Assembly (NCBI GenBank): GCA_030446465.1
Contig: JAUJNI010000002.1
Span: 235,895 to 299,894 of the forward strand
DNA from: Actinomycetota bacterium
GTDB lineage: Bacteria > Actinomycetota > CADDZG01 > WHSQ01
Length of the DNA: 64,000 bases
Direction of reading: 5' to 3'
Shown: piece after piece, positions 45,392 to 61,620 of the stretch
Numbering within the stretch: position 1 is the stretch's first letter
Layout: each line of letters starts with the position of its first letter
The notes under the pieces: model-generated
Told to the model about the DNA's origin: nothing
What the model saw: only the letters and a program-made list of their open reading frames with translations
Databases searched by the model: none
Position numbers and translations under genes: made by a program

Positions 45392-48283
45392 TCACCACTC
45401 CACCAGCTTCCAGATCTGGGGCTCGAGATCACCTGCGTCCGCTCCGATCTCGGCGAAGATCTTGACGGCCTCCCGCAGGTAATTCATCGATTCATCACTA
45501 CGCCCGGCCGCGTGCAGCAAGTCGGCGAGATTGTTGTTCAGTGCGGCCTCCCGGTGTCTATCCCTATGCTTTTTACACAGCTCGAGCGCAGTTTGTGCGA
45601 GAGCGATGGCTCTGTCGTAGTCACCCTGCGACCCTATTGTCAGCGCCAGGTTGTTCAAGGCTGCGGCGCGGGCGTTTTCGTCGCCCAAGCTCTCGGCAAG
45701 GTTCAGGCTCTCTTCGAGGTGCCGACGCCCGTCCTCCAGCCGATCGCGTCTGCTCGAGAGGATCCCGAGGATGTTGTGAGCCTGAGCAAGGGATCGCTCG
45801 TCTGCCACATGGACGGCTAGCTCGAGAGCCTGCTCGGCGACTTCAAAGGCTTGGTCGCTGCGACGCCGATGATGAAGCGTCAGGCTCTTGTCCGCCAGCA
45901 GGCGCGGGGTTCTCGGGTCGAGCTCGTTTTCCAAAGCGGTGAGGGCGGCGTCGAAGTGGCTCTCCGCCGCGTCCCAGTCTCCCCGTCTGTCGTGGACGTT
46001 GCCCAGCTTGTGCTCGAGGTCGATTAGAGCCTCGACGCTGGATAATGCCGCCGCGGTCTCATAGCTAGTAACTGCGAGCTTGTATTCGCCTCGCAGCGTG
46101 TGCAGGTCTCCTATCGCCTCGTGAAGCCTTCCCGGCTCCGGATGGTCGAGAGCAAGCGCAGCTCCGAAGTGCTCGAGAGCCTCTCCATACGCGAAGAGGG
46201 ACCGCGCGTGACGACCGGCGGTCTCGTAGAAGGCGGCGGCGTCTTGCTCGCGGCCTGCCAGCTCGTAGTGTCGAGCGATGGCGCCGGCCATTGCATCGGG
46301 CCTTCCCCTGGATCTTGCCAACGCGTCCCCGACACGCCCGTGCAGAAGCCTGCGCCTCGCTGCGTTGATTTCTTGGTAAGCGAACTCACGAAGCAGCGAA
46401 TGGCTGAAGTCGTATGACGGTGGCGTCGACCTGTCGGTGTCGAGCTCCATCACGAGGTTGAGGTTGACAAGCTCCTCTAGTGCAGACACCACCTCGTCTT
46501 CGCTTCTTCCGGCGGATCGCTTTAAAACATCGAAATCGAACGATCCGCCGATGACGGCTGCTGCAGCCAGGACTTGACGTGCGGTTTGACTCGAGGCTGC
46601 GATGCGGGCGGTCAAGAGATCCCGCACCCCGGAGGGGGGCTCCCACGGTTCGTCAATCGAGGTGCCCTCGCTCGTTAGCGCGCGGAGGTATTCGACGACG
46701 AACATCGGTAGACCGTCCGTCTCCCGGTAGAGGCGCGAGCCCAGCTCGTCATCGAAGTGATCGCCTGGGCCAACATGTCCAACTAGCTCACGCACTGCCC
46801 CCTCATCAAGGCGGTTCAGTTTGATGGAGGTAATCGTGTTGCCGCTCTGCAATTGCGGGAGCAAGCGGATGAGCCGGTCGTGACCCCGGACTTGCTCGCT
46901 TCTCCAGGCGAGCACAAGCAAGAGGGGCCGCCCCGTGAGGCGCATGCACATGAAGGCGAGGAGCTCCGCCGAAGCTTCATCGATCCACTGGACGTCGTCT
47001 ACGAAAAGGACCCCGTGAGGCGGACCCTCGCACGCCGTTGACAACAAGTGAGCCAGTCCCTCATAGAAACGACTCTTTGCCCCCGGGTCTGTCAGGTCGG
47101 GGGCGTCGGGGAGACCCAGTGAGTGGCGCAACTCGGGGACCAAGCGGGCAACTTCAACCAGATGCTGCTGTCCCACGGTTCCCAGCCAGGACTTATCGTC
47201 TCTGGACTCCAGCGCTCCGCGGAGGAGATCGATGACCGGCCCGTAAGTCAGATCCGTCTCACCCTCGTGACAGCGGGCGGTGACCGCAACTGCGCCCTTG
47301 GTGCGCACCTCCTCCAGGAAGTCGTTGCATAACCGCGTCTTGCCGATGCCCGCCTCGCCCTGAATCGCCGCCACATGCCCATTGGCGCCAACGCGCTCAT
47401 ACGCGTCGAGGAGCGCAGTCCATTCGATCGCACGTCCCGTCAGCGGATAGAGGTCCAGGCCTGTCTCGACCGGCTTGCCGTTCCCCGCAACAACGGCGAC
47501 GTCAGGCCCGGCTTCCAGTGGAGGCGCCCGGTTCTCCATGATGGCTTGGTAAAGCTCGGCGGTCTGGTCAAGAGGAGCTACACCTAGCTCTCGGTCAAGG
47601 ACCGCGACGCAGTCCCGGTACTGCTTGATGGCCGCGGATCGATCACCCGCCCACGCATGCAGCAGCATCAGTTGGCGATGGGCCGGCTCGTGCAAAGGCT
47701 CTAGCGCCAGCCACCGCCGCGCGTACTCGATTGCTGGGGAGAGGTCGCGCTTGATGGCGACACAGCGGACGAGTCGCTCGAGGGCACCCGATGCGAGACG
47801 ACGGAAGTGTTCTGCTTGAAGGAGTTGCCAGTCGTCGAACTCGACGCTGTCTCGGAGCGAGAAGCCGGTCATGAAGTCACCGCGATACAGGCCCACCGCA
47901 GCCACCAAGGGGGCCTCACAACGATTGCAAACTGCAGAGGATGCATGGCCATGGCCCTGGCAGTCATCCAGGGCGCAGTGAAGCTGTGCCACGTCCTTGA
48001 ACGTTTCCTTCTCCGCGAGGGCGACGGTCGCTCGATCGACCTCGAGCCACTTGCCTCCAAGGGCCTTCTTGAGCGTCGAAAGGGTGCGCCGAAGGGCGCC
48101 CCGAGCGCTGTCGTTGTCGTGTTCTGGCCACAGTAGTGCGGCGAGGGAATCCCTCCTGGAGGCTTCGCTGCAGGTAGCCAGATAGGCGAGTAGCGCGATC
48201 GCCTTGCGTGTGTCGACCTGAAGGGGGCGACCGTCGACTTCGATCCTGGGGGGGCCGAGCAGCAAGACCCTCAATTCGGACAT
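45392..48283 (-). CDS. SARP/BTAD-AAA-TPR transcriptional regulator
   Basis: This 963-aa regulator combines an N-terminal winged-helix OmpR-like DNA-binding domain (about residues 5-95: SELRVLLLGPPRIEV, ALLWPEHDNDSARGALRRTL), the bacterial transcriptional activation domain (about 100-250; YRDCVAVLDRELGVAP), an AAA/NB-ARC-like ATPase with Walker A GEAGIGKT (about 309-316) and Walker B VLFVDDVQWID (about 425), and C-terminal TPR repeats (about 680-960; LAQAHNILGILSSRRDRLED). It belongs to the AfsR/SARP class of pathway activators. ATG 48283 follows GAGGGAG. The gene is divergent from the eight-gene receptor array, which makes the array a likely target; that is inference. Confidence 0.92.
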   Translation of the reverse strand: MSELRVLLLGPPRIEVDGRPLQVDTRKAIALLAYLATCSEASRRDSLAALLWPEHDNDSARGALRRTLSTLKKALGGKWLEVDRATVALAEKETFKDVAQLHCALDDCQGHGHASSAVCNRCEAPLVAAVGLYRGDFMTGFSLRDSVEFDDWQLLQAEHFRRLASGALERLVRCVAIKRDLSPAIEYARRWLALEPLHEPAHRQLMLLHAWAGDRSAAIKQYRDCVAVLDRELGVAPLDQTAELYQAIMENRAPPLEAGPDVAVVAGNGKPVETGLDLYPLTGRAIEWTALLDAYERVGANGHVAAIQGEAGIGKTRLCNDFLEEVRTKGAVAVTARCHEGETDLTYGPVIDLLRGALESRDDKSWLGTVGQQHLVEVARLVPELRHSLGLPDAPDLTDPGAKSRFYEGLAHLLSTACEGPPHGVLFVDDVQWIDEASAELLAFMCMRLTGRPLLLVLAWRSEQVRGHDRLIRLLPQLQSGNTITSIKLNRLDEGAVRELVGHVGPGDHFDDELGSRLYRETDGLPMFVVEYLRALTSEGTSIDEPWEPPSGVRDLLTARIAASSQTARQVLAAAAVIGGSFDFDVLKRSAGRSEDEVVSALEELVNLNLVMELDTDRSTPPSYDFSHSLLREFAYQEINAARRRLLHGRVGDALARSRGRPDAMAGAIARHYELAGREQDAAAFYETAGRHARSLFAYGEALEHFGAALALDHPEPGRLHEAIGDLHTLRGEYKLAVTSYETAAALSSVEALIDLEHKLGNVHDRRGDWDAAESHFDAALTALENELDPRTPRLLADKSLTLHHRRRSDQAFEVAEQALELAVHVADERSLAQAHNILGILSSRRDRLEDGRRHLEESLNLAESLGDENARAAALNNLALTIGSQGDYDRAIALAQTALELCKKHRDRHREAALNNNLADLLHAAGRSDESMNYLREAVKIFAEIGADAGDLEPQIWKLVEW

Positions 48284-48584
48284 AACTCCCTCTTGTTCCT
48301 CCCGGGTGGCGTAGTCAATCTCCAGTTTCGCAACGAGGTGAGCGCTTGCAAATGGTTCCGTAACGATTTCCAGACGATATTCCTCCACGATCCTTGCGGA
48401 TGGGAGCCGAAATCTTTGTTTGGGACCGATTGCGGTTGATACGCGGCGAGGAGCACAAGCACAATCTGGACGAGGCATGGTGACCGGAACGACGGCATGG
48501 TGAGGGCGGGGGATCCCCGGTGAGTAGGCGCGCTGCGAGCCGCCTGGCGTGGTCCATCTGCGCAGCAACGGAGGGACCTCCCCT
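48284..48584. promoter_or_regulatory. Divergent control region between regulator and receptor array
   Basis: This 301-bp stretch holds no gene. It is less GC-rich around 48340-48420, where promoters for both directions may lie, but no convincing -35/-10 pair was found. A 10-bp direct repeat, GGCATGGTGA, occurs at 48474-48483 and 48494-48503, that is with a 20-bp period (about two helical turns). SARP proteins bind direct heptamer repeats on one DNA face, so this is a candidate operator for the divergent regulator. Confidence 0.4.
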
Positions 48585-49796
48585 ATGACTGCCGTTTGGA
48601 AGAGACGGATAGCGTGGGGGCTGACCACCCTTTGCGTCGTCGCCTTTGCGGTGACCCTCTTCATCGCGTGGCTGACGACTCGTGCAGGGCTCGACGATGA
48701 GGGCACCTGGCGTTTTGACGGCATCATCGGGCTCGTGTTCCCTCTGGTCGGGGCCCTGATCGTCTCCCGCCAACCCGGAAACCGGATCGCCTGGTTGTTC
48801 TCTGCCATAGGTCTAAGCGCGACGCTTGGCGCTTTGCTCCCTGAGTACGCTCATTACGCGACGCGCGTAGACAGCTCTTGGCCCGGTGGGGAGGTGGCGG
48901 CTTGGGCCGGAGGATGGGTCTGGTTGCCGTTCTTCATGCTCGTTCCCACCTTTCTTTTTCTCCTTTTTCCGGGTGGCCACCTGCCTTCTAGGGGCTGGAA
49001 GCCGATCGCCTACCTGGCCGGGATCTCGCTTATCGGGTTGATCCTTACGTTCATGGTGTTGCCCTATGGCGCCGGTGAGGAGGGCGTCGGCGCGGACCCG
49101 TTTGGGATCGACTCGTTGGAGGCACCGTTGAACGTGGTCGCCGTTGTGTTTGGCGTGGGGCTGGGTGTATCGGCAATAGCCAGCATCTACTCCCTGTTCT
49201 GGAGGCGCCGCCGGGCAAGTGCTCGGGAGCGCCAGCAGCTCAAGTGGTTTGCCTACACGGCAGCACTCACCCCGGTCCTGTTCATGACCGGTGACCCGAT
49301 TGGGCAGGCGTTGTCGGGCGACGACGTTTCCGACTTGCCGGTTGACCCTTCGGTAATCTCTTTCCTCGTCCTTCCTGTGGCGCTCGGCATTGCGATAACG
49401 CGTTACCGGCTCTATGACATCGACCGGATCATCAGCAGGACATTGGTCTACGGTGCAGTCACGGCGCTGTTGGTGCTCGCCTATGCGGGAGGCGTTGTCG
49501 TCATCCAGACGCTGCTCCCCGTGTCTAATGATTCCCCGGTCGTAGTCGCAGCCTCCACGCTCGCCGTCGTGGCGCTGTTCAGACCATTGCGGAATCGTGT
49601 CCAGGGTTTGGTCGATCGTCGGTTCTACCGGCGCCGCTATGACGCCGCAAGGACCATCGAGTCCTTTGGTTCGCGCCTGCGCCAAGAGACCGACCTCGAT
49701 TCACTCAGCACAGAACTGATCGCGCTTGTCAGGGACACCATGCAGCCCGCGCATGCGTCGCTGTGGTTGCGGAGTTTCCAGGAGCCCGCCTCATGA
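48585..49796 (+). CDS. Receptor-array paralog 1: polytopic membrane protein
   Basis: The first of eight tandem paralogs encodes a 403-aa protein with about ten predicted membrane segments. Landmarks shared with the others are NRIAWLFSAIG (about residue 60), LFLLFPGGHLPSRGW (about 123), RYRLYDIDRIISRTLVYGAV (about 276-295) and the cytosolic C-terminal module VDRRFYRRRYDAARTIES...MQPAHASLWL. The RYRLYDIDRII motif is known from membrane parts of actinobacterial histidine kinases and phosphatases, but no kinase domain is present. ATG 48585 is chosen over GTG 48549 because GGAGGG precedes it. This copy is more diverged in its last 120 residues than copies 2-7. Confidence 0.85.
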   Translation: MTAVWKRRIAWGLTTLCVVAFAVTLFIAWLTTRAGLDDEGTWRFDGIIGLVFPLVGALIVSRQPGNRIAWLFSAIGLSATLGALLPEYAHYATRVDSSWPGGEVAAWAGGWVWLPFFMLVPTFLFLLFPGGHLPSRGWKPIAYLAGISLIGLILTFMVLPYGAGEEGVGADPFGIDSLEAPLNVVAVVFGVGLGVSAIASIYSLFWRRRRASARERQQLKWFAYTAALTPVLFMTGDPIGQALSGDDVSDLPVDPSVISFLVLPVALGIAITRYRLYDIDRIISRTLVYGAVTALLVLAYAGGVVVIQTLLPVSNDSPVVVAASTLAVVALFRPLRNRVQGLVDRRFYRRRYDAARTIESFGSRLRQETDLDSLSTELIALVRDTMQPAHASLWLRSFQEPAS

Positions 49797-50986
49797 CGAG
49801 GCATATCGCGCCCATCGCGGTAATCGCCCTTTACACGGCCTGTGCTGCGGCGACCTGGTGGCTCCAGACTCTTAACGGCGAGAGCGTCGCATCGGAGTCC
49901 GCGATCCTGTTTGGAGTCGCCCCTTACGCGGCTGTGGGCGCCCTGATCTTGAGACGGCGGCACGGGAATCCGATCGGCTGGATCTTCTCGGCTATCGGGA
50001 TCCTGTGGGCGATGGGCGCGCTGGCGGAAGAGTACGCGCTGCGCGGCTTAGTCGTGCGGCCTGGATCCGTCGTCGCACCTGCGTGGGCCGCTTGGTACGG
50101 CGAATGGTACTGGCTCGCCTTCTGGGGGCTCGTGCTTGTCTTCATGCCCTTGCTCTTTCCTACGGGGAGCGTTCCCTCCAAGCGATGGCGTCCGGTCTTG
50201 TGGATCGCGGTTTTGACGGTTGGTGGATTTACCGCGCTGGCCGCCCTCGAGTCGGAGCTGCAACTGCCCAACAGCAGCGTCGCCGTAGTCAATCCTGTGG
50301 GCATCCCGGGGCTCCGGGACGTGGAGAGCGGATTTCTGGGCGGGCTGCTTGCGGTGCTCATGCTGGTCTCTGTGTGGTCGGCGGTGGTCTCGTTGGTTGT
50401 CCGGTTCAGGCGATCCGCGGGGACCGAGCGACTGCAGCTCAAGTGGTTCACCTACAGCAGCCTGATGTTCGTCGCGGGCTTCATTGGCATGGCGTTGGTC
50501 GACGCCGTGAGTGGTGAGCGAGGGGGGTTCGCCGATGTGCTGCTGGTGGCCCTCATACCGACGCCGGCCGTGGGCGCCGGCGTAGCCATCCTCAAGTACC
50601 ACCTCTACGACATCGACCGCATCATCAACAGGACGCTCGTCTACGGTGCCGTCACCGTCTTGCTGGCCCTGGGATATGCGGGAGGAGTGCTTCTCGCGCA
50701 AGCGGTCCTCCCGGTAAGTGATGACTCCCCGGCGCTGGTCGCAATCACGACCCTGGCAGTGGTTGCCCTTTTCCGCCCGCTGAGAAGCCGCGTACAAGGC
50801 TTCGTCGACCGCCGCTTCTACCGGCGTCGCTACGACGCGGCCCGGACCATCGAGTCGTTCGGCTCCCGCCTCCGCCAGGAGACGGATCTCGACTCCCTCA
50901 GGGGCGAGCTGCTCATGCTCGTTCAGGACACGATGCAGCCGGCCCACGCCTCGCTGTGGCTCCGGCAGCAGGAGGCACCGCAATGA
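49793..50986 (+). CDS. Receptor-array paralog 2
   Basis: The 397-aa membrane protein's ATG overlaps the stop of copy 1 (ATGA). Its extracytosolic-facing loops differ from those of copy 1, for example the YALRGLVVRPGSVVAP stretch after the third span. Past about residue 265 it carries the common HLYDIDRIINRTLVYGAV and C-terminal module. A 44-nt tract (50672-50715) is identical, including wobble bases, to copy 4 but not to its neighbour copy 3, which points to gene conversion. It ends with LWLRQQEAPQ. Confidence 0.85.
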   Translation: MTRHIAPIAVIALYTACAAATWWLQTLNGESVASESAILFGVAPYAAVGALILRRRHGNPIGWIFSAIGILWAMGALAEEYALRGLVVRPGSVVAPAWAAWYGEWYWLAFWGLVLVFMPLLFPTGSVPSKRWRPVLWIAVLTVGGFTALAALESELQLPNSSVAVVNPVGIPGLRDVESGFLGGLLAVLMLVSVWSAVVSLVVRFRRSAGTERLQLKWFTYSSLMFVAGFIGMALVDAVSGERGGFADVLLVALIPTPAVGAGVAILKYHLYDIDRIINRTLVYGAVTVLLALGYAGGVLLAQAVLPVSDDSPALVAITTLAVVALFRPLRSRVQGFVDRRFYRRRYDAARTIESFGSRLRQETDLDSLRGELLMLVQDTMQPAHASLWLRQQEAPQ

Positions 50987-52164
50987 GACGACGCGCGAGC
51001 AAGGTAGCCGCCGCCATGATTGCCGTGTTCTTTACCGCGATGGTGCCGGCCGTGGTTCTTGCTGAGATCAACGGCAACTTCCACGCGGACACCGTCTCGC
51101 TCCTACTTGCCTTCGCGGCGTTCATGGGGGTGGGAGCCCTAGTCGTTGGTCGTCATCCGAGCAATGCGGTTGGATGGGTCTTCTCAGCCATCGGTCTACT
51201 GGCGAGCACGGGGGTCGCGGCCCAGGAGTATGCCGAGTACGCGTACGTAACACGGCCCGGTTCCCTTCCAGGGGCGATCGGAGCCGCCTGGTATGCAAGC
51301 TGGTACTGGCTCCCCCTGATTATTCTGACGCTCCTCTTCACCGTCCTGCTGTTTCCGACCGGACGACCGCTGTCTCCCCGCTGGACGCCCGTCCTATGGG
51401 TGGCGGCGACCGCAACGGCAAGCATGACGGTGCTCGCAGCGCTGAACCCGACGATCGACCTTCAGGACGAGGATTACTCCGTCCCGAATCCGATCGGAGT
51501 CAAGGCGGTGGGAGACGTCGAGGAGAATGCCGTCGGCGGGGTCCTCTCCGGCATCGTCCTGTTGTGCTCAGTCGCCTCAATTGTGTCGCTCGTGATTCGT
51601 TTTCGCCGCTCGAGGCGCGACGAGCGCCAGCAGCTCAAATGGTTCACCTACGCGGCCACTCTCGTCGTGTTTCTTGCCGTGGCCGAGGAACTGCTTCCCT
51701 TCACCGAGCTAGGAGACTGGGTCTTTGGAGTGGTTGTTGCTCTGTTGCCTGTTGCCGCGGGGATCGCCATCCTCAAGTACCGGCTCTACGACATCGACCG
51801 CATCATCAACAAGACGCTGGTCTACGGGGCCGTCACCGCACTGCTGGGCCTCGGATACGCGGGGGGAGTGCTCCTGGCTCAGGCCGTTCTGCCGGTAAGC
51901 GACGACTCGCCGGCGGTAGTTGCGATCACGACCCTCGCAGTGGTTGCTCTCTTCCGCCCTTTGAGAAGCAGGGTCCAGAGCTTCGTCGACCGCCGTTTCT
52001 ACCGCCGCCGCTACGACGCGGCGAGGACCATCGAGTCGTTCGGCTCCCGCCTCCGCCAGGAGACCGACCTCGACTCACTCAGCACCGAGCTGCTGGGTCT
52101 CGTCAAGGACACAATGCAACCGGCCCACGCCTCGCTGTGGCTACGCAAGCAGGAGACGGCATGA
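50983..52164 (+). CDS. Receptor-array paralog 3
   Basis: At 393 aa this is the shortest member. Its start is ATG 50983, overlapping the previous stop. The predicted spans include AAAMIAVFFTAMVPAVVLAE, VSLLLAFAAFMGVGALVVG, WYWLPLIILTLLFTVLLFPT and GVLSGIVLLCSVASIVSLVI, then YRLYDIDRIINKTLVYGAVT. The loop after span 3 (EYAEYAYVTRPGSLPG) is again unlike those of its neighbours. The C-terminal 110 residues are nearly identical to those of copies 2 and 4-7. Confidence 0.85.
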   Translation: MRRRASKVAAAMIAVFFTAMVPAVVLAEINGNFHADTVSLLLAFAAFMGVGALVVGRHPSNAVGWVFSAIGLLASTGVAAQEYAEYAYVTRPGSLPGAIGAAWYASWYWLPLIILTLLFTVLLFPTGRPLSPRWTPVLWVAATATASMTVLAALNPTIDLQDEDYSVPNPIGVKAVGDVEENAVGGVLSGIVLLCSVASIVSLVIRFRRSRRDERQQLKWFTYAATLVVFLAVAEELLPFTELGDWVFGVVVALLPVAAGIAILKYRLYDIDRIINKTLVYGAVTALLGLGYAGGVLLAQAVLPVSDDSPAVVAITTLAVVALFRPLRSRVQSFVDRRFYRRRYDAARTIESFGSRLRQETDLDSLSTELLGLVKDTMQPAHASLWLRKQETA

Positions 52165-53354
52165 GCCGGCGAGCCGCTGGCCTTCTGGCCTGGGCACTGT
52201 GCGCGGTGGCGATCGTTGCGGCTGGGGCGCTGATCTGGCTCAGGGCAACCGCTCCTTCTGAGCCGGGGGCATCCGAGTCAGAGGACTTGACCTTCGCACT
52301 TTCGTTTCTGGCCTTCGCACCGGTTGGTGCCTTGATCGCGTCACGCCGGCCCGAGAGCCCTATCGGGTGGTTGGCCTGTGGCGTGGGCCTCTTCACAGTC
52401 GTTGCGACCCTTGGCCGCGGGTACGCGGTGTGGGCGTTGATCCTGGAACCTGGCTCTTTGCCGGCCGGAGGTGCGGCTGCGATGGTGGCATGGTCCGTCT
52501 CCCCCCTTGGGTTCGCTTGCTTTGCGTTCCTCATTCTGCTGTTCCCCGATGCCCGGCTGCCTTCTCGTCGCTGGAGGTGGCTACCACCGCTAATGGTTGG
52601 GTCGCTCGTCGCAATCCTTGCTGTAGGTGTGTCTGTCGGATCCACAGATGCTCCCTCGCTCCTTGCCGATCAGCCACCAGGGGGTGGACCGGTCGAGCTT
52701 GTCCTCAACATCGCCACCGGTGTGTTCTTTGCCTCACTCGTTGTTTGTCTCAGCTCCATGTTGTTTCGGTTCAGGCGCTCCCGGGGGATCGAGCGCCAGC
52801 AACTGAAGTGGTTGGCCTACGTGGCCTCGATCGTCGCCGCTCTTCTCGCCTTCGAGATCCTGTCCGGGGGTGCTGTTCGCGTTGCCCAGCAAATGTTGGA
52901 CTTCACCGTTCTGGGATTGCCGATTGCCGTGGGCATCGCCATCCTGAAATACCGGCTGTACGACATCGACAGCATCATCAACAAGACGCTGGTCTACGGC
53001 GGGGTCACCGCGCTTCTGGCCCTTGGATATGCGGGAGGAGTGCTTCTCGCGCAAGCGGTCCTCCCGGTGACGGATGACTCGCCCGCGCTGGTCGCCATAA
53101 CAACACTGGCAGTCGTTGCGCTCTTCCGCCCGCTTAGAAGCCGCGTCCAGGGCTTCGTCGACCGCCGTTTCTATCGCCGACGCTACGACGCGGCCAGGAC
53201 CATCGAGTCGTTCGGCTCCCGCCTTCGCCAGGAGACCGACATCGACTCATTGAGGAGAGAGCTGCTAGCACTGATCGGAGAGACCATGCAGCCGGCCCAC
53301 GCCTCGCTATGGCTGGCTTCTCACTCTTCCACTCAGCGTGAGGAGACGGGGTGA
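52161..53354 (+). CDS. Receptor-array paralog 4
   Basis: The 397-aa member is again in ATGA overlap. It has a longer first extracytosolic loop (RATAPSEPGASESEDL, about residues 26-41) and a second acidic loop GSTDAPSLLADQPPGGGPVE (about 162-181), neither found in the other copies. The motif reads YRLYDIDSIINKTL, with Ser for the usual Arg, and the C-terminal module has TDIDSLRRELLALIGETMQP. The tail after MQPAHASLWL is SerThr-rich (ASHSSTQREETG), instead of the LR... ending of the other copies. Confidence 0.85.
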   Translation: MSRRAAGLLAWALCAVAIVAAGALIWLRATAPSEPGASESEDLTFALSFLAFAPVGALIASRRPESPIGWLACGVGLFTVVATLGRGYAVWALILEPGSLPAGGAAAMVAWSVSPLGFACFAFLILLFPDARLPSRRWRWLPPLMVGSLVAILAVGVSVGSTDAPSLLADQPPGGGPVELVLNIATGVFFASLVVCLSSMLFRFRRSRGIERQQLKWLAYVASIVAALLAFEILSGGAVRVAQQMLDFTVLGLPIAVGIAILKYRLYDIDSIINKTLVYGGVTALLALGYAGGVLLAQAVLPVTDDSPALVAITTLAVVALFRPLRSRVQGFVDRRFYRRRYDAARTIESFGSRLRQETDIDSLRRELLALIGETMQPAHASLWLASHSSTQREETG

Positions 53355-54565
53355 CTAGGAGAGGCGCGTCGCGACTGGCGTGGTCCCTGTTCGTATTTGC
53401 GGTTGCGTTCGCGGTCGTCGGGACAGTGTGGGGCATGACGCGTGCGGAAGTCCCTGGGATCTCGCCCGTGCGACCCGTCGACCTGCTGTGGATGGCCGCG
53501 GTGCTCTCCGTACCCTTCGTGGGGGCGGTGGTCGCCTCGCGCCGGTCGGAGAACGCGGTTGGATGGATTCTTTGCTCGATAGGGGCCAGCACATCGCTGG
53601 GGATCGCCTCGCAGGAGTACGCGATTCGAGCACTCGTTCTCGATGGATCACTTGCGGGCGGAACACTAGCGGCTTGGCTTTCGACGTGGCTCTTTACCCC
53701 CGGATTCGGCTTGTTCACGACGCTCGTTCTTCTCCTGTTCCCGGATGGGAAGCTTCCTTCTTCGAGATGGCGATCGGTCGCTCGAGCCGGAGCCGCCAAT
53801 GTCGCGATTGCTACGCTTGTGTCTGCCTTGAGGCCGGGGCCGATCGAGGGATTGGCTGGGACGCGCAATCCAGTGGGTATCGACTCTTTGGGGACCGCTT
53901 TAGAGCTCTTGTCGCAGGTGACCGGCTTTTTGTTCTTGGTATTCCTAGTCGTCTCCGTGTCGTCTTTGGTTGTCCGATTTCGCCGTTCTCGCGGTGAGCG
54001 GAGACAGCAATTGAAGTGCCTTACTTATGCAGCATCGGTGGCGGCCACGACCATCGTGCTCGGCGCGATCGGTGAGGCAGTCGGCTTGCGGGAAAAGGCG
54101 CCGGAATTCATCGGAGCTCTCATAGTCGTCCTCGCGATCGTGACCGTACCGGCTGGCATCGGAATCGCCATCCTCAAATACCACCTCTACGACATCGATC
54201 GCATCATCAACAAGACGCTCGTTTACGGTGCGGTCTCAGTCCTGCTGGCGCTCGGATACGCCGGGGGAGTCCTTCTTGCCCAGGCCGTCCTGCCGGTGAC
54301 CGACGACTCCCCTGCGGTGGTCGCCATCACGACGCTCGCAGTCGTCGCCCTCTTCCGCCCGCTTAGGAACCGCGTCCAGGGCTTCGTCGATCGGCGCTTC
54401 TACCGTCGCCGCTACGACGCAGCCAGGACCATCGAGTCGTTCGGCTCCCGCCTGCGCCATGAGACCGACCTCGACTCCCTGAGCCGCGAGCTACTCGGGC
54501 TGGTCAACGACACGATGCAGCCGGCCCACGCATCCCTGTGGCTGCGCGCCGAGGCCACCAGATGA
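53351..54565 (+). CDS. Receptor-array paralog 5
   Basis: The 404-aa member starts at GTG 53351 (GTGA overlap), the only overlap start in the array that is not ATG apart from copy 8. Characteristic variable parts are TRAEVPGISPVRPVD (loop 1) and the region RPGPIEGLAGTRNPVGIDSL. QLKCLTYAASVAATTIVLGA replaces the usual QLKWF. The constant part begins at YHLYDIDRIINKTLVYGAVS, and the module has a single His variant (LRHETDLDSLSRELLGLV). Confidence 0.85.
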   Translation: MTRRGASRLAWSLFVFAVAFAVVGTVWGMTRAEVPGISPVRPVDLLWMAAVLSVPFVGAVVASRRSENAVGWILCSIGASTSLGIASQEYAIRALVLDGSLAGGTLAAWLSTWLFTPGFGLFTTLVLLLFPDGKLPSSRWRSVARAGAANVAIATLVSALRPGPIEGLAGTRNPVGIDSLGTALELLSQVTGFLFLVFLVVSVSSLVVRFRRSRGERRQQLKCLTYAASVAATTIVLGAIGEAVGLREKAPEFIGALIVVLAIVTVPAGIGIAILKYHLYDIDRIINKTLVYGAVSVLLALGYAGGVLLAQAVLPVTDDSPAVVAITTLAVVALFRPLRNRVQGFVDRRFYRRRYDAARTIESFGSRLRHETDLDSLSRELLGLVNDTMQPAHASLWLRAEATR

Positions 54566-55797
54566 ACGCTCCCGCTCCGGGCCCGAGCAGAACGACGACG
54601 ACGCCGATGGCCTGGTGTCTGTGCGTGCTCTCCGTGGCGTTATGGGCTCTTTCTGTGACACTCCAGGTTGCGACCGCGTCTACCCCCGTAACCGGGGTGT
54701 TCGGCTCGCGCGGCGGGACCGGGGTCGTTGGCATGGCTTTTTCTTTCCTGGGGGTGCTGCTCGCAACGCGCCGATCTCTCAACCCGATCGGCTGGATCTT
54801 CCTTGCAGCGGGCCTACTAGCCAGTCTCCAACGGGCGAGCCTCGAGTATGCCGTGTATGGGCTCATCGCGAGGCGCGCCTCGCTCGTGGGTGAAGAGTTC
54901 GCGGCATGGATGTCTAATTGGATGTGGGTACCGCTCGTGGGACTGGTGGGAGTCTTCGTCATCCATCTCTTCCCCAACGGAACCTTTCTATCGCCTCGCT
55001 GGCGAATGGTGGGTTGGATCAGCGCCGTTGGCATGACTTTGACCACGTTCGCAGAGGCGACGACCCCCGGGCCGATGCAGAGTGGCGCTGGGATCGTCAA
55101 CCCCTTCGGCATCGAAGAGGCGCACAGGCTGGTGGCCGTGATGATCGTCGCTTACGGGTTCGGTTTCCTCGGTTCGATTGCTGCGGCGCTGACGTCCTTG
55201 GTGGTGCGTTTCCGTCGCGCCGGAGGCATCGAGAGGGCCCAGATCAAGTGGATCGCTTACGCGGCCGGACTGCTCGCAGCCGCCCTCGCCGCGGGCAGTA
55301 TGGTGTTCCCAACGTCGGCCCCGGACTCGCTTGCGTATCGAGTGTTTGCCAACTTGACGGTGTTCTTTCTGGGAGGTCTTCCGGTGGCAATGGCGATCGC
55401 AATCCTGCGCTACCGGCTCTACGACATCGACCGCCTCATCAACAGGACGCTCGTCTACGGTGTCGTGACCGTCCTGCTGGCGCTCGGATACGCCGGGGGC
55501 GTGCTGCTGGCTCAGGCGGTGCTTCCGGTGCCCAATGACTCTCCGGCGGTCGTGGCGATCACGACGCTCGCAGTCGTCGCCCTCTTTCGCCCGCTCAGGA
55601 ACCGCGTCCAGGGCTTCGTCGATCGCCGTTTCTACCGCCGGCGCTACGACGCCGCCAGGACCATCGAGTCGTTCGGCTCCCGCCTGCGCCAGGAGACCGA
55701 CCTCGATTCACTGAGAGGTGAGCTATTGGGATTGGTCAAGGACACGATGCAACCGGCTCACGCGTCGTTGTGGCTGCGTTCAGGACTCGAGCGATGA
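54562..55797 (+). CDS. Receptor-array paralog 6
   Basis: The 411-aa member has a cytosolic N-terminal extension rich in Pro, Ser and Thr (NAPAPGPSRTTTTP) before the first span. ATG 54562 overlaps the previous stop. The variable region contains VTGVFGSRGGTGVVGMAFSF and STWM-like WMSNWMWVPLVGLVGVFVIH. In place of RQQLKW it has RAQIKWIAYAAG. The motif reads YRLYDIDRLINRTLVYGVVT. The 3' part shares a 28-nt identical stretch with copy 5 (ATCACGACGCTCGCAGTCGT and on). Confidence 0.85.
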   Translation: MNAPAPGPSRTTTTPMAWCLCVLSVALWALSVTLQVATASTPVTGVFGSRGGTGVVGMAFSFLGVLLATRRSLNPIGWIFLAAGLLASLQRASLEYAVYGLIARRASLVGEEFAAWMSNWMWVPLVGLVGVFVIHLFPNGTFLSPRWRMVGWISAVGMTLTTFAEATTPGPMQSGAGIVNPFGIEEAHRLVAVMIVAYGFGFLGSIAAALTSLVVRFRRAGGIERAQIKWIAYAAGLLAAALAAGSMVFPTSAPDSLAYRVFANLTVFFLGGLPVAMAIAILRYRLYDIDRLINRTLVYGVVTVLLALGYAGGVLLAQAVLPVPNDSPAVVAITTLAVVALFRPLRNRVQGFVDRRFYRRRYDAARTIESFGSRLRQETDLDSLRGELLGLVKDTMQPAHASLWLRSGLER

Positions 55798-57080
55798 CAG
55801 GACGCGTCGCCACGAGAGTGGCGTGGTCGCTATGTGCGGTGAGCGTGGCGATGGCGGTCGCCGGTCTTTTGTTCAGCTTCGCGAACCGCTCCATACCAAG
55901 CCCATTCGACTACGGGACGAAAGGCGGCGCCGCTGCGGGAATCGTGGCATTGCTCGCGTTTCCCGTCGTCGGCGCTCTGATCGCATCCCGTCAGCCGGAC
56001 AACTCCATCGGATGGATCTGCCTCGTGTCGGGGATGATCATGCAGCTCTCGAGCTTGTCGCGTGAGTACGCAAGCCTCGCCCTAGACACGGGTCCTAACT
56101 TGCCCCCGGGCGCTGTTGCGATGGGGTGGGTGGGGAATTGGACGTGGCCGTCCTCCTTCGGCCTCTCCGCGACTTTCTTGGTTCTCCTGTTTCCCGACGG
56201 GCGACTCCCCAGCAAGCGGTGGCTCCCCGTGGCCTGGCTGAGCGCTGTTGGGATCGTCGCCGTAAGCGTCACCCTCGCGTTCGCGCCCGGGCGCATGGAG
56301 AACCTGCCTCTCCAGAATCCTTTCGCTTTAGAGTCGGCCAAACCCCTGCTGGATTTCCTGTCTCTCGGCATCGTTCTGCTACCGCTTACCTTCGCTGCTT
56401 CGGCGGTCGCCATGGCAGGGCGCTTCCGGCGATCACGGGGCCGGGAACGGCAGCAGCTCAAGTGGTTCTCGAGTGCAGCCTCGGTCGTCGCCTCCCTGTT
56501 CCTCCTCCAGATAACGCTGTCTTTCCTGACCGGATCGATCGAAGATTTCAGAAACACCTCCTTTCCCCAGAGAGTGCTGCAAGACGTAGTGACCGTATCC
56601 TTCGCAGCTATACCGATTGCTACGGGCATAGCGATACTTCGCTACCGTCTCTACAACATCGACCGCATCATCAACAAGACGCTGGTCTACGGTGTCGTCA
56701 CCGTTCTGCTGGCCCTCGGATACGCGGGGGGAGTGCTACTTGCGCAGGCCGTTCTGCCGGTAACCGACGACTCACCCGCGCTGGTGGCGATCACGACCCT
56801 CGCAGTGGTTGCCCTCTTCCGTCCTCTCAGGAATCGGGTTCAGGGGTTCGTCGATCGCCGCTTCTACCGCCGCCGCTACGACGCGGCCAGGACCATCGAG
56901 TCGTTCGGCTCCCGCCTGCGCCAGGAGACCGACCTCGATTCGCTGAGGAGAGAGCTTCTGGGACTGGTCAACGACACGATGCAACCGGCCCACGCCTCGG
57001 TGTGGCTTCGGGGCATTTCGACTGAACGCTCAACAAGCGCAGGATTCTCGGGTGGGAGTGGAGCGGGTGGAGTTCGCTAG
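55794..57080 (+). CDS. Receptor-array paralog 7
   Basis: At 428 aa this is the longest member. It is extended at the C-terminus by about 20 residues after LWLR (GISTERSTSAGFSGGSGAGG), where the gene overlaps the start of copy 8 by 29 nt. The variable part contains FANRSIPSPFDYGTKGGAAA in loop 1 and an extra loop LTGSIEDFRNTSFPQRVLQD before the eighth span. The conserved motif is YRLYNIDRIINKTLVYGVVT, with Asn for Asp in YDID. ATG 55794 overlaps the stop of copy 6. Confidence 0.85.
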   Translation: MTGRVATRVAWSLCAVSVAMAVAGLLFSFANRSIPSPFDYGTKGGAAAGIVALLAFPVVGALIASRQPDNSIGWICLVSGMIMQLSSLSREYASLALDTGPNLPPGAVAMGWVGNWTWPSSFGLSATFLVLLFPDGRLPSKRWLPVAWLSAVGIVAVSVTLAFAPGRMENLPLQNPFALESAKPLLDFLSLGIVLLPLTFAASAVAMAGRFRRSRGRERQQLKWFSSAASVVASLFLLQITLSFLTGSIEDFRNTSFPQRVLQDVVTVSFAAIPIATGIAILRYRLYNIDRIINKTLVYGVVTVLLALGYAGGVLLAQAVLPVTDDSPALVAITTLAVVALFRPLRNRVQGFVDRRFYRRRYDAARTIESFGSRLRQETDLDSLRRELLGLVNDTMQPAHASVWLRGISTERSTSAGFSGGSGAGGVR

Positions 57081-58272
57081 GAGGACCTGGCGGGTGCTCC
57101 TCGCCCTCACGCTCAGCCTGTTTGCAGCGGCCGTGCCATCGCGCTACAACGAGCTCGCGACGCTGTGCCGGGAGGCACGGGCACAGGGAGTCCTTCCCGA
57201 TGCCGGCGATGGCTTGGGAGCGACCGTTCTATCACCGAGTGTCTACCCCTTCATCGTGCTGGCGGTCGAGGTGATCTTCGTGGCTGCCTTCGCGGTGACC
57301 TCATGGGGGATCGCCTGGGGTAAGACCCAGGACTGGCGTGCGCTGTTCTTCTCGGCCGTGTTCATCGGCTACCCGGTGTGGGTAACGCCCACTCTCGACA
57401 GCTTGGAGCTTCCCGCCGGCGCGCAGCCCGTCGTCAGCCTGGTCCAGGCCGCCGGCCTCCTCCTTGCGATCTTCTTCTTCCTGCTCTTTCCCGACGGCCG
57501 GTTCATCCCTCGTTGGACTCGCTGGAGTGGTCTTGCCTGGACGATCTACACGCTGGCGTGGGGCTTATACCCGAGCGCGTGGTTCAGCCTGATCGACCCC
57601 TTTCACGTCCCGGTGGCGATCTTCATAGCTCTCATGATTGGGTGGACCACCGGGTTGATCGCGCAAGCGGTGCGCTACCATCGCCATGCAAGTCCCCGGC
57701 AGCAGATGCAGACCAAGCTGGTCGTCTTGGCCGTCTCCGGTGCGGTTGCAGGATATGCAGCGGTTTACATCACGGGCGGGCTGATCCCCGGCTCCCCCCT
57801 GGTCTACGACCTCTTCGTGCTCCCCACCTTTTGGTTTCTCGCCATTCCGATCGCAATTGCACTCGGTGTCGCGATGCTGCGGCACAGCCTGTTCGACTTC
57901 TCCGCAGCGATTAAGCGCACGCTCGTCTACGGGGTCGTGACCGGGGTGCTCGCGCTTGGGTACTTCTCCTTGGTGCTGGTGATCCAGGCGACCCTACCGG
58001 TGAGGGATGACTCGCCGGTCGTCGTCACCACCTCGACACTAGCTGTGCTATCTCTCTTTCGGCCGCTGAGGAGCCGCGTCCAGGAGTTCGTGGACCGTCG
58101 CTTCTACCGCCGCCGCTACGATGCCGCAAGAACCATCGAGTCCTTCAGTAACCGTTGCCGAGCGGAGATGGACCTCGATTCACTGAGTACGGAGCTGCTC
58201 ACGGTGGTCATGGACACGATGCAGCCGGCTCATGCATCGCTGTGGCTTCGAGCTCCTGAGGGCCGCGGATGA
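57052..58272 (+). CDS. Receptor-array paralog 8, divergent
   Basis: The last and most divergent member has 406 aa. The first extracytosolic loop is much longer and contains a Cys (SRYNELATLCREARAQGVLP, about residues 27-46, and on to about 60). The YDIDRII motif is replaced by LFDFSAAIKRTLVYGVVTG, yet the constant module VDRRFYRRRYDAARTIESFS is kept, with NRCRAEMDLDSLSTELLTVV. GTG 57052 lies inside the end of copy 7. It may be the oldest copy, or one drawn from elsewhere; it lies directly before the phosphatase. Confidence 0.85.
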   Translation: MGVERVEFARRTWRVLLALTLSLFAAAVPSRYNELATLCREARAQGVLPDAGDGLGATVLSPSVYPFIVLAVEVIFVAAFAVTSWGIAWGKTQDWRALFFSAVFIGYPVWVTPTLDSLELPAGAQPVVSLVQAAGLLLAIFFFLLFPDGRFIPRWTRWSGLAWTIYTLAWGLYPSAWFSLIDPFHVPVAIFIALMIGWTTGLIAQAVRYHRHASPRQQMQTKLVVLAVSGAVAGYAAVYITGGLIPGSPLVYDLFVLPTFWFLAIPIAIALGVAMLRHSLFDFSAAIKRTLVYGVVTGVLALGYFSLVLVIQATLPVRDDSPVVVTTSTLAVLSLFRPLRSRVQEFVDRRFYRRRYDAARTIESFSNRCRAEMDLDSLSTELLTVVMDTMQPAHASLWLRAPEGRG

Positions 58273-58387
58273 CCGGCCCACGCCTCGTTGTGGCTGCGCC
58301 AAAGCAGCGCTTCGAGCCCAGAAAGTTCTCCAGCTACTCGATCTCGTAACGATTCTCGGACGATGGGCACGTAAAAGGGAGGGTGAG
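58273..58387 (+). pseudogene. Remnant of a ninth receptor copy: isolated 3' tail
   Basis: Directly after the stop of copy 8 the DNA reads GGCCCACGCCTCGTTGTGGC (from 58277), which in frame gives PAHASLWLRQ, the last residues of the conserved module, without anything before it. It continues with QSSASSPESS and soon stops. This is best read as the scar of a recombination or deletion that removed most of a further array member. The strong ribosome site GGGAGGGTGAG of the next gene follows. Confidence 0.6.
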
Positions 58388-60034
58388 ATGGCCACCAGGA
58401 CAAGATCGTTGAGGGCAATCAGGCGCCGTAAGGGCGCCGAGCCCGGTGCCGTGGTGGAGTCCGCCTCCGCCCCCCAGTCCGAACAAGCTCCGGTCGACAT
58501 CTCGCCGGGCGACCCCCTGCTCGCCTACCTCGAGAGTGCGGGGGGACCGGTGGACCTCGATTCGCTCGAGCTCGAATCACCCGCCAAGGAGGAGCTCCGT
58601 AGCGCCGGCGTCCAGGTGGTCGTCCCGCTGGTCAGCCAGGGTGAGCTCATTGGCCTTCTCAATCTCGGCCCCCGCCTTAGCGAGCAGGAGTATTCCGCCG
58701 ATGACCGCAAGCTGCTCGACACCCTAGCCGGCCAGGCAGCACCTGCGGTGAGAGTGGCACAACTCGTGCGTGAGCAGGAGGCGGAGGCTCGCGAGCGTGA
58801 GCGCGTGGAACAGGAGCTGAAGGTTGCGACGCTCATCCAGCAGCAGTTCTTGCCGAGAGAGCTCCCCGATCTGCCTGCGTGGCACATTGCGGCCTTCTAC
58901 CGACCCGCCCGGGAAGTGGGCGGCGACTTCTACGACTTTATCGAGCTGCCCGAAGGAAAGCTCGGCATCGTGGTTGGCGACGTCACGGACAAGGGCGTGC
59001 CCGCCGCCCTGGTGATGGCGATGACGCAGAGCCTTCTCGGCGCCGAGGCACCGAGACTGGTGTCCCCCTCTGAGGTGATGGAGCGTGTGAACGACCTGCT
59101 CGTCGCCGACATGCCCCCCAAGATGTTCGTAACCTGCCTCTACGCAGTCCTCGACCCTTCCTCGGGCAAACTCCAGTACGCGAACGCGGGCCACAACGTG
59201 CCCTATGTGGCGACGGACGATGCGGTCGTCGAGTTCCGAGCGACGGGCATGCCGCTAGGGCTACTGCCGGGCATGAAATACGAGGAAAAAGAGGGTGTCC
59301 TCGGCCCGGGCGACACCATTTTGTTGCACAGCGACGGTTTGGCCGAGGCTCACAACGGCGATCGAGAGATGTTCGGGTTTCCGCGGCTTATGAAGCACAT
59401 GGAGCATCGAAGCACGGGCGAGGCCGTGATCGACGACCTTTTAAAAGAGCTTGATGCCTTCACCGGCCGCGACTGGGAGCAGGAGGACGACATCACTCTC
59501 GTGACCTTGCAGCGGTCCCGCCATGCTCCGCTGTTCGCCGAGGTTCTGGGTGCGAGGTCCAGCGCTTCGTCGTCGCAGGACGGTTCCCCAGAGAAAGATC
59601 GGACTCTGGCGGAGTTCGAGGTTGCAAGCCGGCCCGGCAACGAACGTACTGCGATGGCGCGGATCACGGAGGCCGTCGAGGAGCTCGACATTCCATCCGC
59701 TCGCCTCGAGCGCCTAAAGACGGCGGTGGCCGAGGCGACGATGAACGCGATCGAGCACGGCAACAACAACCAGGCAGACATCCCCGTGGGGATAAGTGCC
59801 GTCGTTGAAGGAAACGACTTGGTCATCCGGGTGACGGATCAAGGCGGAGAGAAGGCACTGGCCGAGGTCGAGCAGCCGGACCTCGAGGCGAAGCTTGCCG
59901 GGGAGCAAAAAGCTCGGGGATGGGGCTTGTTTCTCATCAAGAACATGGTCGACGAGATGAATGTCGACAGTGACGCCACCCTTCACACCATCGAGCTCAA
60001 GTTCCACCTGAAAGGGGACGGCCATGGAAGCTAG
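58388..60034 (+). CDS. GAF - SpoIIE phosphatase - RsbW-type kinase fusion
   Basis: The 548-aa cytosolic protein has four parts. Residues 1-45 are basic and disordered. A GAF-like domain follows (about 45-122; VVVPLVSQGELIGLLNLGPR). A coiled coil spans about 125-152. The PP2C/SpoIIE phosphatase (about 160-377) has metal sites in REVGGDFYDF, VVGDVTDKGVPAAL and EQEDDITLV. A GHKL ATPase of anti-sigma type (about 405-545) has the N-box EATMNAIEHGNNNQ, VTDQGG and RGWGLFLIKNM. It thus joins the opposing activities of partner switching, dephosphorylation and phosphorylation of an STAS antagonist. Two STAS genes follow directly, the first overlapping it by 11 nt. Confidence 0.93.
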   Translation: MATRTRSLRAIRRRKGAEPGAVVESASAPQSEQAPVDISPGDPLLAYLESAGGPVDLDSLELESPAKEELRSAGVQVVVPLVSQGELIGLLNLGPRLSEQEYSADDRKLLDTLAGQAAPAVRVAQLVREQEAEARERERVEQELKVATLIQQQFLPRELPDLPAWHIAAFYRPAREVGGDFYDFIELPEGKLGIVVGDVTDKGVPAALVMAMTQSLLGAEAPRLVSPSEVMERVNDLLVADMPPKMFVTCLYAVLDPSSGKLQYANAGHNVPYVATDDAVVEFRATGMPLGLLPGMKYEEKEGVLGPGDTILLHSDGLAEAHNGDREMFGFPRLMKHMEHRSTGEAVIDDLLKELDAFTGRDWEQEDDITLVTLQRSRHAPLFAEVLGARSSASSSQDGSPEKDRTLAEFEVASRPGNERTAMARITEAVEELDIPSARLERLKTAVAEATMNAIEHGNNNQADIPVGISAVVEGNDLVIRVTDQGGEKALAEVEQPDLEAKLAGEQKARGWGLFLIKNMVDEMNVDSDATLHTIELKFHLKGDGHGS

Positions 60035-60377
60035 GGACCTGGCAACAGATGTCCGCCGTCAAGGCGACGCCGCCATCGTCCACTTGAGTGGCGAGCTCAA
60101 CAGCTCTGCCGAAGGCCCGCTGAACGACGCCTACGACGAGATCACGGACGTCAGCACGGTGATCCTCAACTTCGGCGACGTCCAGTACATCAACAGCACG
60201 GGAATCGCCGTGATCGTGGGTGTGCTCGGCAGAGCGCGTCGGGAGGGCAAGTCCATCGTGGCCTGTGGGCTGATGGATCACTACAAGGAGATCTTCCAGA
60301 TCACGCGCCTCGCAGACTTCATGAACATCTATCCCGACGAGGCCAGTGCAGTGGCCGGCATGCCGGCCGCGAGTTGA
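60024..60377 (+). CDS. STAS-domain anti-sigma factor antagonist 1
   Basis: This 117-aa SpoIIAA/RsbV-like protein has the phosphorylatable Ser in YINSTGIAVIVGVLG (about residue 57), in the normal DSxG-like position, with Asn instead of Asp before the Ser. The C-terminal helix is DHYKEIFQITRLADFMNIYP. ATG 60024 lies inside the end of the phosphatase-kinase gene, so both proteins should be made together. It is the likely substrate of the fused kinase and phosphatase. Confidence 0.9.
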   Translation: MEARDLATDVRRQGDAAIVHLSGELNSSAEGPLNDAYDEITDVSTVILNFGDVQYINSTGIAVIVGVLGRARREGKSIVACGLMDHYKEIFQITRLADFMNIYPDEASAVAGMPAAS

Positions 60378-60411
60378 GAAGGTTGGACAGACGGACCTAA
60401 AGGGAGGGCAG

Positions 60412-60768
60412 ATGTCACAAACGGCAACCATGGATGTTCGCCAGGCCGGTAGAAGCGCCAGCATCGTCGACGTCAAAGGGGACGTCACGGCGAATTCAGA
60501 GGACGTGCTGATGGATGCCTACAACCGGGCTAGCGAGTCCGGTGTTCGTTCGATCGTGCTGAACTTCGAAGGCCTCGACTACATGAACAGTGGCGGCATC
60601 GGCCTCCTCGTCACACTTCTGGTCCGCGCCAATCGTCAGAGACAGCAGTTGTTTGCGTACGGGCTCACCGACCACTATCGCCAGATCTTCGAGCTCACCC
60701 GGCTCGATGAAGCGGTGGGGATCTACGACAACGAAAGGGACGCGCTGGCGGCGGCCGGCGCGCGGTAA
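60412..60768 (+). CDS. STAS-domain anti-sigma factor antagonist 2
   Basis: The second STAS protein, 118 aa, is similar in layout to the first but clearly different in sequence. The Ser site is YMNSGGIGLLVTLLVR (about residue 59) and the helix is DHYRQIFELTRLDEAVGIYD. AGGGAGGGCAG precedes the ATG. Two antagonists in one operon, both with NS before Gly, suggest two outputs or a stepwise titration of the kinase. Confidence 0.9.
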   Translation: MSQTATMDVRQAGRSASIVDVKGDVTANSEDVLMDAYNRASESGVRSIVLNFEGLDYMNSGGIGLLVTLLVRANRQRQQLFAYGLTDHYRQIFELTRLDEAVGIYDNERDALAAAGAR

Positions 60769-60789
60769 AGGGTTCAGGAGAGGAGAGGT

Positions 60790-61620
60790 ATGGACGGGGC
60801 GCCGCAAAGGCCAGAGGAGATAATCGAACCAACGAACCAGGAAGCAACACCAGAGGCGATTGCGCGCGACGCCGCCAACTGGGCAAAGCTGACCCCTTCT
60901 CTGACGGTCGGGGAGGTCCCCGCCGACGCCGTGAACATCAACGTCACCGGCCGTCGCCAGGTAAGCCCCATCCAAGGCTTCGGGAAGATGTGGCAAAAGA
61001 CCTACAAGGTGACGCTCACCGGGGGATCCGCCACTCCGCAGGAAGTGATCAGCGAGTGGAAGGCAAACTTCCCCAAGTTCTGGCCCCCGAGGAACTCCTT
61101 CTACGGTCCCCTAACCGGGATCGCTCCCGGTGACGTCGCGCTCCTGAACCTGACCATGCCGGGCCGGCTGAAGCTCTCGACCGGCGTCCTGGTCATGTAT
61201 GCCGACGATGAGTCCTTCACGCTGATGACTCCTCAAGGGCACATGTTCGCCGGGTGGATCACCTTCAGCGCCTACGACAAGGGCGGTGAGACCGTGGCTC
61301 AGGCTCAGGTCCTCATGAGGGCCAACGACCCGATGTACGAGGTGGGGCTCACCATGGGCGGGCACAGAAGCGAGGACCGCTTCTGGGAACACACGCTCAC
61401 GGCTCTCGCAGCTCACTTCGGAGTCGATGGCGAGGTCGACACGCAGGTCGTGTGCGTGGACAAGAAGCGGCAATGGCGCAACGCAAGAAACATCCGCTAC
61501 AACGCGGCGATCCGCTCCAGCCTCTACTCCATGGGGGCGCCTTTTCGTGCTGTGTCACGCTCGAAGCCCACGGCGACAGAGACGACGCCGCCGGACGACG
61601 CCAACAAGCCCACTGCCTAA
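60790..61620 (+). CDS. Protein of unknown function, possible lipid- or ligand-binding fold
   Basis: The 276-aa soluble protein lies 21 bp after the STAS genes, with AGGAGAGG before the ATG. The middle (about residues 70-215) is rich in beta strands: NFPKFWPPRNSFYGPLTG, VALLNLTMPGRLKLSTGVLV, FTLMTPQGHMFAGWITFSA, then TMGGHRSEDRFWEHTLTALA near residue 195. The alternation, and a large hydrophobic pocket-type composition, resemble SRPBCC/DUF1990-like proteins, but this is an impression. There is no signal peptide. It may be the last gene of the island or an effector of the STAS pathway. Confidence 0.6.
   Translation: MDGAPQRPEEIIEPTNQEATPEAIARDAANWAKLTPSLTVGEVPADAVNINVTGRRQVSPIQGFGKMWQKTYKVTLTGGSATPQEVISEWKANFPKFWPPRNSFYGPLTGIAPGDVALLNLTMPGRLKLSTGVLVMYADDESFTLMTPQGHMFAGWITFSAYDKGGETVAQAQVLMRANDPMYEVGLTMGGHRSEDRFWEHTLTALAAHFGVDGEVDTQVVCVDKKRQWRNARNIRYNAAIRSSLYSMGAPFRAVSRSKPTATETTPPDDANKPTA

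Follow-up and report, generated by a model that had tools for sequence, protein, structure and literature searches.

A tandem array of membrane receptors that may complete the split GAF domain of a single SpoIIE-type phosphatase

We analysed a 64,000-nt stretch of DNA (the window) from an Actinomycetota bacterium (assembly GCA_030446465.1, contig JAUJNI010000002.1, positions 235,895 to 299,894, forward strand), in which eight consecutive, intact and co-oriented receptor open reading frames (ORFs) of 393–428 amino acids (aa) fill positions 48585–58272 of the plus strand. A single effector gene starts with an ATG at 58388, 115 nt after the array. We consider it fairly likely that these genes form a many-to-one sensory hub, in which we infer that a receptor docks onto the effector, completes its GAF domain and controls its partner-switching output. 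The genes of the hub are as follows.

48585..49796, plus strand: receptor 1, 403 aa.
49793..50986, plus strand: receptor 2, 397 aa.
50983..52164, plus strand: receptor 3, 393 aa.
52161..53354, plus strand: receptor 4, 397 aa.
53351..54565, plus strand: receptor 5, 404 aa, GTG start.
54562..55797, plus strand: receptor 6, 411 aa.
55794..57080, plus strand: receptor 7, 428 aa.
57052..58272, plus strand: receptor 8, 406 aa, divergent sensor class with the same tail as the others.
58388..60034, plus strand: effector, with a basic N-terminus, a partial GAF domain, a SpoIIE (PPM) phosphatase domain and an RsbW-like HATPase_c_2 domain.

Six of the seven junctions within the array are 4-nt ATGA/GTGA overlaps and the last one, between receptors 7 and 8, is a 29-nt overlap. 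Hydropathy predicts 7–10 membrane spans in each of the eight proteins, and the AlphaFold model of receptor 3, calculated from a 26-sequence alignment, shows about ten membrane helices at a mean predicted local distance difference test (pLDDT) of 84. A Pfam scan of all eight receptors returned no domain above the family cut-off and no catalytic domain. In particular, the HisKA and HATPase domains of a histidine kinase were absent from the eight chains, as was the STAS domain of a stressosome sensor. A preliminary description of this DNA had proposed eight genes of this size on one strand, joined mostly by 4-nt overlaps and encoding proteins with about ten membrane spans and neither kinase nor effector domain, and our analysis agrees with it on each point. 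The structural matches of the receptor membrane domain in the PDB were GPCR (G-protein-coupled receptor)-like or rhodopsin-like, weak (E 0.01 at best, template modelling (TM) score 0.3) and not used further.

By alignment, the receptor tails break off within a GAF domain, once helix 1 and strand 1 are complete. This pair of elements is encoded in each receptor by an 86-nt repeat unit, and its GAF identity was established through a natural fusion protein in genome G002 and the fused kinase L060.

49686..49771, plus strand: GAF helix 1 and strand 1, receptor 1 tail.
50879-50964, 52060-52145 and 53232-53317, plus strand: GAF helix 1 and strand 1, receptors 2–4.
54461-54546, 55693-55778, 56925-57010 and 58165-58250, plus strand: GAF helix 1 and strand 1, receptors 5–8.

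The effector, by comparison, begins within the domain. Its Pfam GAF match covers profile positions 41–132 of 133, with the first ~40 positions missing, its GAF_2 match begins at profile position 84 of 136, and when its N-terminus and those of ten relatives are combined into a profile, this aligns only to the C-terminal half of solved GAF domains. By Pfam, no complete GAF domain is present in the single chain of the effector; one is complete only in the G002 fusion, a natural 896-aa protein that joins a receptor to SpoIIE, where the full profile (1–133) matches residues 469–614. In this fusion the receptor-tail match stops at residue 494 and the effector-like part begins at 541. The NCBIfam PrsK model (TIGR02916) is matched by residues 313–391 of receptor 3 at model positions 270–348, by the effector at 405–473, and by the fusion at 97–457 in one stretch. 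The two matches overlap in the single-chain kinase L060, GAF_3 beginning at residue 353 and the receptor tail reaching residue 378. Moreover, 90 solo receptors end at a median of 8 residues past the LWLR motif of strand 1, whereas fused kinases run directly into the next strand. The claim of the preliminary description that this C-terminal stretch leads into a GAF domain in single-chain proteins is borne out by L060, the PrsK model and the G002 fusion, while the docking module, which it had placed in the last 110 residues, can be narrowed to the GAF helix 1 and strand 1 that the effector lacks. In the receptor 3 model the last helix is formed and the final strand motif is unsupported (pLDDT ~50), as would be expected of a strand that has its partners in another chain. 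A second fusion candidate, L135 (960 aa), was set aside since its middle part looks frame-shifted.

Receptors and effector also occur together across genomes. Among 61 relatives, effector orthologs that are 56–68% identical were found in 14 genomes (the window's own included) at about one per genome, and receptor matches number ~3 to 28 per genome, some of them being fragments or fused kinases, so that a typical genome has one effector and several to ~20 receptors. G113 has 12 receptor matches and one effector. In the near-complete genomes G201 and G229, 5 solo receptors stand against 1 full effector of this type, and G201 also holds a SpoIIE paralog with a different N-terminus. In a set of 396 Actinomycetota genomes the effector is present in 31 and strong solo receptors in 33, with both in 28, effector only in 3, receptor only in 5 and neither in 360, counts that come from related, non-independent genomes and are uncorrected for phylogeny, which makes the Fisher value descriptive only. 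Arrays that never lie beside a SpoIIE/RsbW gene had been named beforehand as the outcome that would speak against a common effector, and the opposite was found: of 30 effector loci, 26 have receptors no more than 10 kb away, and at least 18 have them upstream of the effector, on the same strand and within 2.5 kb. Adjacency and co-occurrence therefore support the earlier proposal of alternative receptors that share a common module, with which they would dock onto one effector.

The recurrent gene order near the effector is AfsR-like BTAD regulator, receptors, effector, STAS, STAS, a protein of unknown family and a flavin adenine dinucleotide (FAD) oxidoreductase, often with additional receptors beyond the latter. 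In the genome scan, named contigs place the cluster in metagenome-assembled genomes of Actinomycetota and in Chloroflexota (Anaerolineae, Promineifilum), and one Chloroflexota contig carries a tandem array of seven receptors, some of which are partial or frame-disrupted. The sensor family forms arrays in fused form too, since in G057 a tandem array (L041:5156-17834) encodes six single-chain histidine kinases (672–746 aa) with the same type of membrane domain.

Array and effector are each preceded by copies of one DNA element, and a candidate regulator is encoded divergently from the array.

45392..48283, minus strand: AfsR-like large SARP regulator, divergent from the array, with BTAD (124-248), AAA_16 (281-457) and TPR_12 domains by Pfam.
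48359..48376, plus strand: SARP-type direct-repeat element CGTAACG-N7-GACG, an exact match between regulator and array; putative array promoter.
58345..58362, plus strand: SARP-type direct-repeat element followed by TAAAAG, a sequence match; putative effector promoter.

The longest ORF of the regulator (45392-48808) overlaps receptor 1, and its start at 48808 is probably wrong. Because relatives align from about residue 176 of this long ORF and an ATG at 48283 has a likely ribosome site, we place the true start near 48283. The element stands upstream of the effector in 25 of 29 loci, in both phyla, often with a further CGTAACG 12 nt upstream and TAnnnT ~9 nt downstream. In SARP operators the direct repeats are spaced 11 bp apart and the 3' repeat lies ~8 bp from the -10 (PMC10936776; PMC5930380). 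The spacing found here (CGTAACG-N4-nnnGACG, ~9 nt to TAnnnT) fits that of an AfsR-like SARP operator, with imperfect repeats. A matrix trained on effector upstream regions located the element upstream of 17 of 57 receptors that are first in their unit, upstream of 1 of 32 internal receptors and in 2.1% of random windows. The window's genome has four exact copies of the element: those upstream of the array (48359) and the effector (58345), one preceding a receptor remnant of the same contig, and one preceding the gene of a small lipoprotein. This last copy (L139, C4:887917 of the same genome) precedes a predicted lipoprotein of 171 aa with zero Pfam matches, a possible regulon member outside the cluster. 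A search of this genome with one mismatch allowed gave 45 matches versus 61 for the reversed control pattern, and since there was no excess only the exact form was used. We regard the neighbouring AfsR-like SARP regulator as the probable driver of transcription of array, effector and scattered receptors, acting via the shared element.

Within the array, the tails are far more alike than the sensors. The tail DNA contains eight copies of a 300-nt and an 86-nt repeat unit, spaced ~1.17–1.24 kb and 69–83% identical to the reference copy. By the Nei-Gojobori method, the tails of the eight receptors have a synonymous divergence (dS) of ~1.0, a nonsynonymous divergence (dN) of ~0.076 and a proportion of synonymous differences (pS) of 0.30–0.70, while the sensor part is near saturation (dS ~1.8, dN ~0.80); receptor 8 is the most divergent of the eight in both parts. 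From the tail dS and dN (dN/dS ~0.08) we conclude that the tails are kept by selection at the protein level. Tail pS is 0.30–0.60 among receptors 2–7 and 0.55–0.70 in pairs with receptors 1 and 8, and the lower values suggest some homogenisation of the tails of receptors 2–7. Recent gene conversion as the sole cause of tail conservation was rejected on the basis of this tail dS and the near saturation of receptors 1 and 8.

Seven of the eight sensors are closer to a sensor of another genome than to one another, whereas all eight tails are closest to each other, with identities of 0.72–0.94 within the eight and 0.59–0.64 to outside tails. Tree building with 50 receptors unites the eight tails in one clade (support 99.6), and a single group of the eight sensors is rejected by the approximately unbiased test (p-AU 5e-70). 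By these comparisons the receptors of this genome have a chimeric history, with concerted tails and sensors that do not group together. Of 86 receptors from 29 genomes, 38 have their nearest tail and 11 their nearest sensor within their own genome, where label shuffling expects 3.2; within-genome tail identity is likewise high (0.83) in G229. Such likeness is to be expected if tails must fit one local partner, but could also come from conversion in tandem arrays.

The output of the hub is, by the features tested, a partner-switching module. SpoIIE/RsbW/STAS sets work by partner switching. The effector has the SpoIIE (PPM) phosphatase domain (PF07228, 1e-52) and an RsbW-like anti-sigma kinase domain (PF13581, 8e-21; TIGR01925 and RsbW models match below cut-off), and two STAS antagonist genes conserved in the cluster lie next to it.

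60024..60377, plus strand: STAS protein 1, anti-sigma antagonist type (PF01740, 4.5e-14).
60412..60768, plus strand: STAS protein 2 (PF01740, 1.2e-12).

In the mechanism that we propose, each receptor would sense its own signal through its membrane domain and would reach into the cytosol with a tail that holds no more of a GAF domain than helix 1 and strand 1. The remainder of this domain would come from the single effector, where a long helix links it to the phosphatase and the RsbW-like kinase, and the tail would dock by completing the domain, in the manner of fragment complementation. The signal may then alter the GAF domain and the coiled-coil helix (residues 104–154), hence the phosphatase dimer, and the change in phosphatase would shift the phosphorylation state of both STAS proteins of the neighbouring genes. 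The AfsR-like SARP regulator would drive transcription of array, effector and scattered receptors via the common element. The scheme is consistent with PPM phosphatases being controlled by dimeric sensor domains via coiled-coil linkers (PMC12143880). We give about even odds to a more general principle: a signalling domain divided between two proteins, of which interchangeable receptors each give one half and a single effector the other, with the result that whichever receptor docks could complete the one phosphatase and control it. Receptors would be gained and shuffled, the half-domain would be kept compatible by concerted evolution, and membership would be marked by a common SARP-type promoter.

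Several observations weigh against such a hub, and some of them fit other explanations. On the structural side, the model of the effector N-terminus, which comprises two strands and a 51-residue helix (residues 104–154) and has neither the first helix nor the first strand, is weak (pLDDT 62), and the structures that its fold matches are nearly all GAF domains, with weak scores (E 0.1–1). In addition, the strand-2 segment is missing from both halves, and a rebuilt GAF domain would be incomplete. This gap between strand 1 and the effector half, together with a tail that is mostly helical and whose last strand is unformed in the isolated model (pLDDT ~50), would fit receptors acting on the effector through a tail that is a membrane-proximal dimerisation helix only, the coupling being indirect or helix to helix and the GAF domain not completed. 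We judge this unlikely, because the two chains part within one GAF domain and what the effector lacks is exactly what the receptors have, and because solo receptors stop soon after strand 1, which leaves this strand partnerless in its own chain.

On the side of distribution, the co-occurrence counts carry the phylogenetic caveat given above, and five genomes with solo receptors have no detected effector (G011, G013, G172, G308 and G386; all are fragmented, G011 being nevertheless 98% complete). Four effector loci (L096, L115, L132 and L136) have no nearby receptor in the stretch read, only about a third of first-in-unit receptors have the element, and the mirror-tree signal between tail and effector is modest, with a partial r of 0.41 versus 0.30 for sensors. 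The tails of G113 and G201 are not homogenised (within-genome identity ~61–68%), which rules out tail conservation as a universal trait; the near-invariance noted in the preliminary description holds for the window's genome and is partly genome-specific. Receptor genomes without a detected effector, effector loci without nearby receptors and the resemblance of the tails to kinase tails would all suit receptors that signal to other partners, such as single-chain kinases via mixed dimers, beside an effector that is a co-localised but separate stress module. This we hold to be very unlikely given the co-occurrence, the adjacency, the fusion and the shared promoter-like element, and given that our search of the window's own genome beyond the array found only one frame-disrupted receptor locus and one short remnant. 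That the receptors are decaying or accessory histidine kinase copies without the catalytic half, acting as decoys or inactive, is barely credible, for although single-chain kinases with the same sensor and tail exist, as do remnants (the spacer at 58273-58386, L010 and L009), all eight ORFs are intact with the low tail dN/dS reported above, solo forms with the same end point recur beside the effector across two phyla, and many solo receptors are preceded by the same promoter-like element. We therefore retain the many-to-one hub as our preferred reading.

The remaining features of the region are listed here.

58273..58386, plus strand: spacer with the remnant of a further receptor tail (PAHASLWLRQSSASS... 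then stop), in frame with receptor 8.
60790..61620, plus strand: conserved protein without a known family, a cluster member in Actinomycetota and Chloroflexota.
61658..63085, plus strand: FAD oxidoreductase, CrtI/CrtO-like, far under the NCBIfam cut-offs, conserved in the cluster.

The tail remnant in the spacer points to loss or recombination where the array ends (3'), and an 86-aa tail-only ORF at L044:4572-4832 is similar to it. Elsewhere in the window's genome, L009 (C2:59395-60563) is a receptor broken by a frameshift, and L010 (C6:649730-649888) is a 45-aa, internally deleted receptor remnant with its own copy of the promoter element. The protein encoded at 60790..61620 has zero Pfam or NCBIfam matches; it is found with the cluster in either phylum, and some loci (L118, L127, L129) have it twice. 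No sigma factor was recognised among the genes examined at 58388-63085, where no search was aimed at sigma factors, and in the subset of ORFs that was scanned the sole HATPase_c was the effector's C-terminal domain, with nothing recognised as an RsbT-like gene. The preliminary description does not mention the pair of STAS genes, the AfsR-like regulator or the common promoter element. One Actinomycetota family (L125, L127, L131, L132) divides the effector between two genes, one for GAF-SpoIIE and one for the RsbW-like part. At L133:7540-9309 and L092:625-1875 there are SpoIIE paralogs with a different membrane domain instead of the GAF half, the one in L133 having its own STAS pair and RsbW gene.

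By analogy, the hub would work most like the input of the stressosome (RsbR paralogs, RsbS, RsbT and RsbU; Bacillus and others), in which several paralogs, their N-terminal sensors variable and their C-terminal module conserved, also feed one SpoIIE-type phosphatase and STAS/RsbW partner switching. However, RsbR is cytoplasmic and has a common STAS domain within a large shell that releases RsbT, whereas the receptors described here are membrane proteins that lack this defining shared domain and have as their common module the GAF part missing from the effector. With PrsK, the XrtA/PEP-CTERM histidine kinase, the likeness is that receptor tail and effector half match consecutive parts of its single chain. 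PrsK and the actinobacterial single-chain kinases with this membrane domain have one chain and a histidine kinase output; in the array system the chain is broken inside the GAF domain and the output is a PPM phosphatase. RsbZ, OsaC and the fusion Rv1364c similarly combine a GAF or PAS sensor, a coiled-coil linker and a PPM phosphatase, in Rv1364c also with an anti-sigma factor domain (PMC12143880), but unlike those of the effector their sensor domains are complete and in a single chain. AfsR and other large SARP regulators share BTAD with AAA/NOD and TPR domains, and direct repeats 11 bp apart near the -10 (PMC10936776; PMC5930380); here, in contrast, a putative element and regulator accompany a sensory hub in two phyla. 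Our survey of the open-access literature, with subscription papers and preprints outside its scope, returned nothing relevant on split GAF receptors or on receptor arrays with SpoIIE. To our knowledge, a set of interchangeable membrane receptors, each providing what the sensor domain of one effector lacks, has not been described.

The layout thus recurs in two phyla, Actinomycetota and Chloroflexota, and seems to be undescribed. A bacterial sensor usually has its output in its own chain or signals through a soluble partner. In this layout the chain is interrupted within a single small domain, and several to ~20 receptors seem to share one output enzyme. If docking takes place as proposed, new sensors could be joined to an existing pathway by copying a tail of ~30 residues, and the hub would offer a natural split domain for engineering. 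A large class of membrane proteins that lack annotation in Actinomycetota and Chloroflexota would also gain a probable function.

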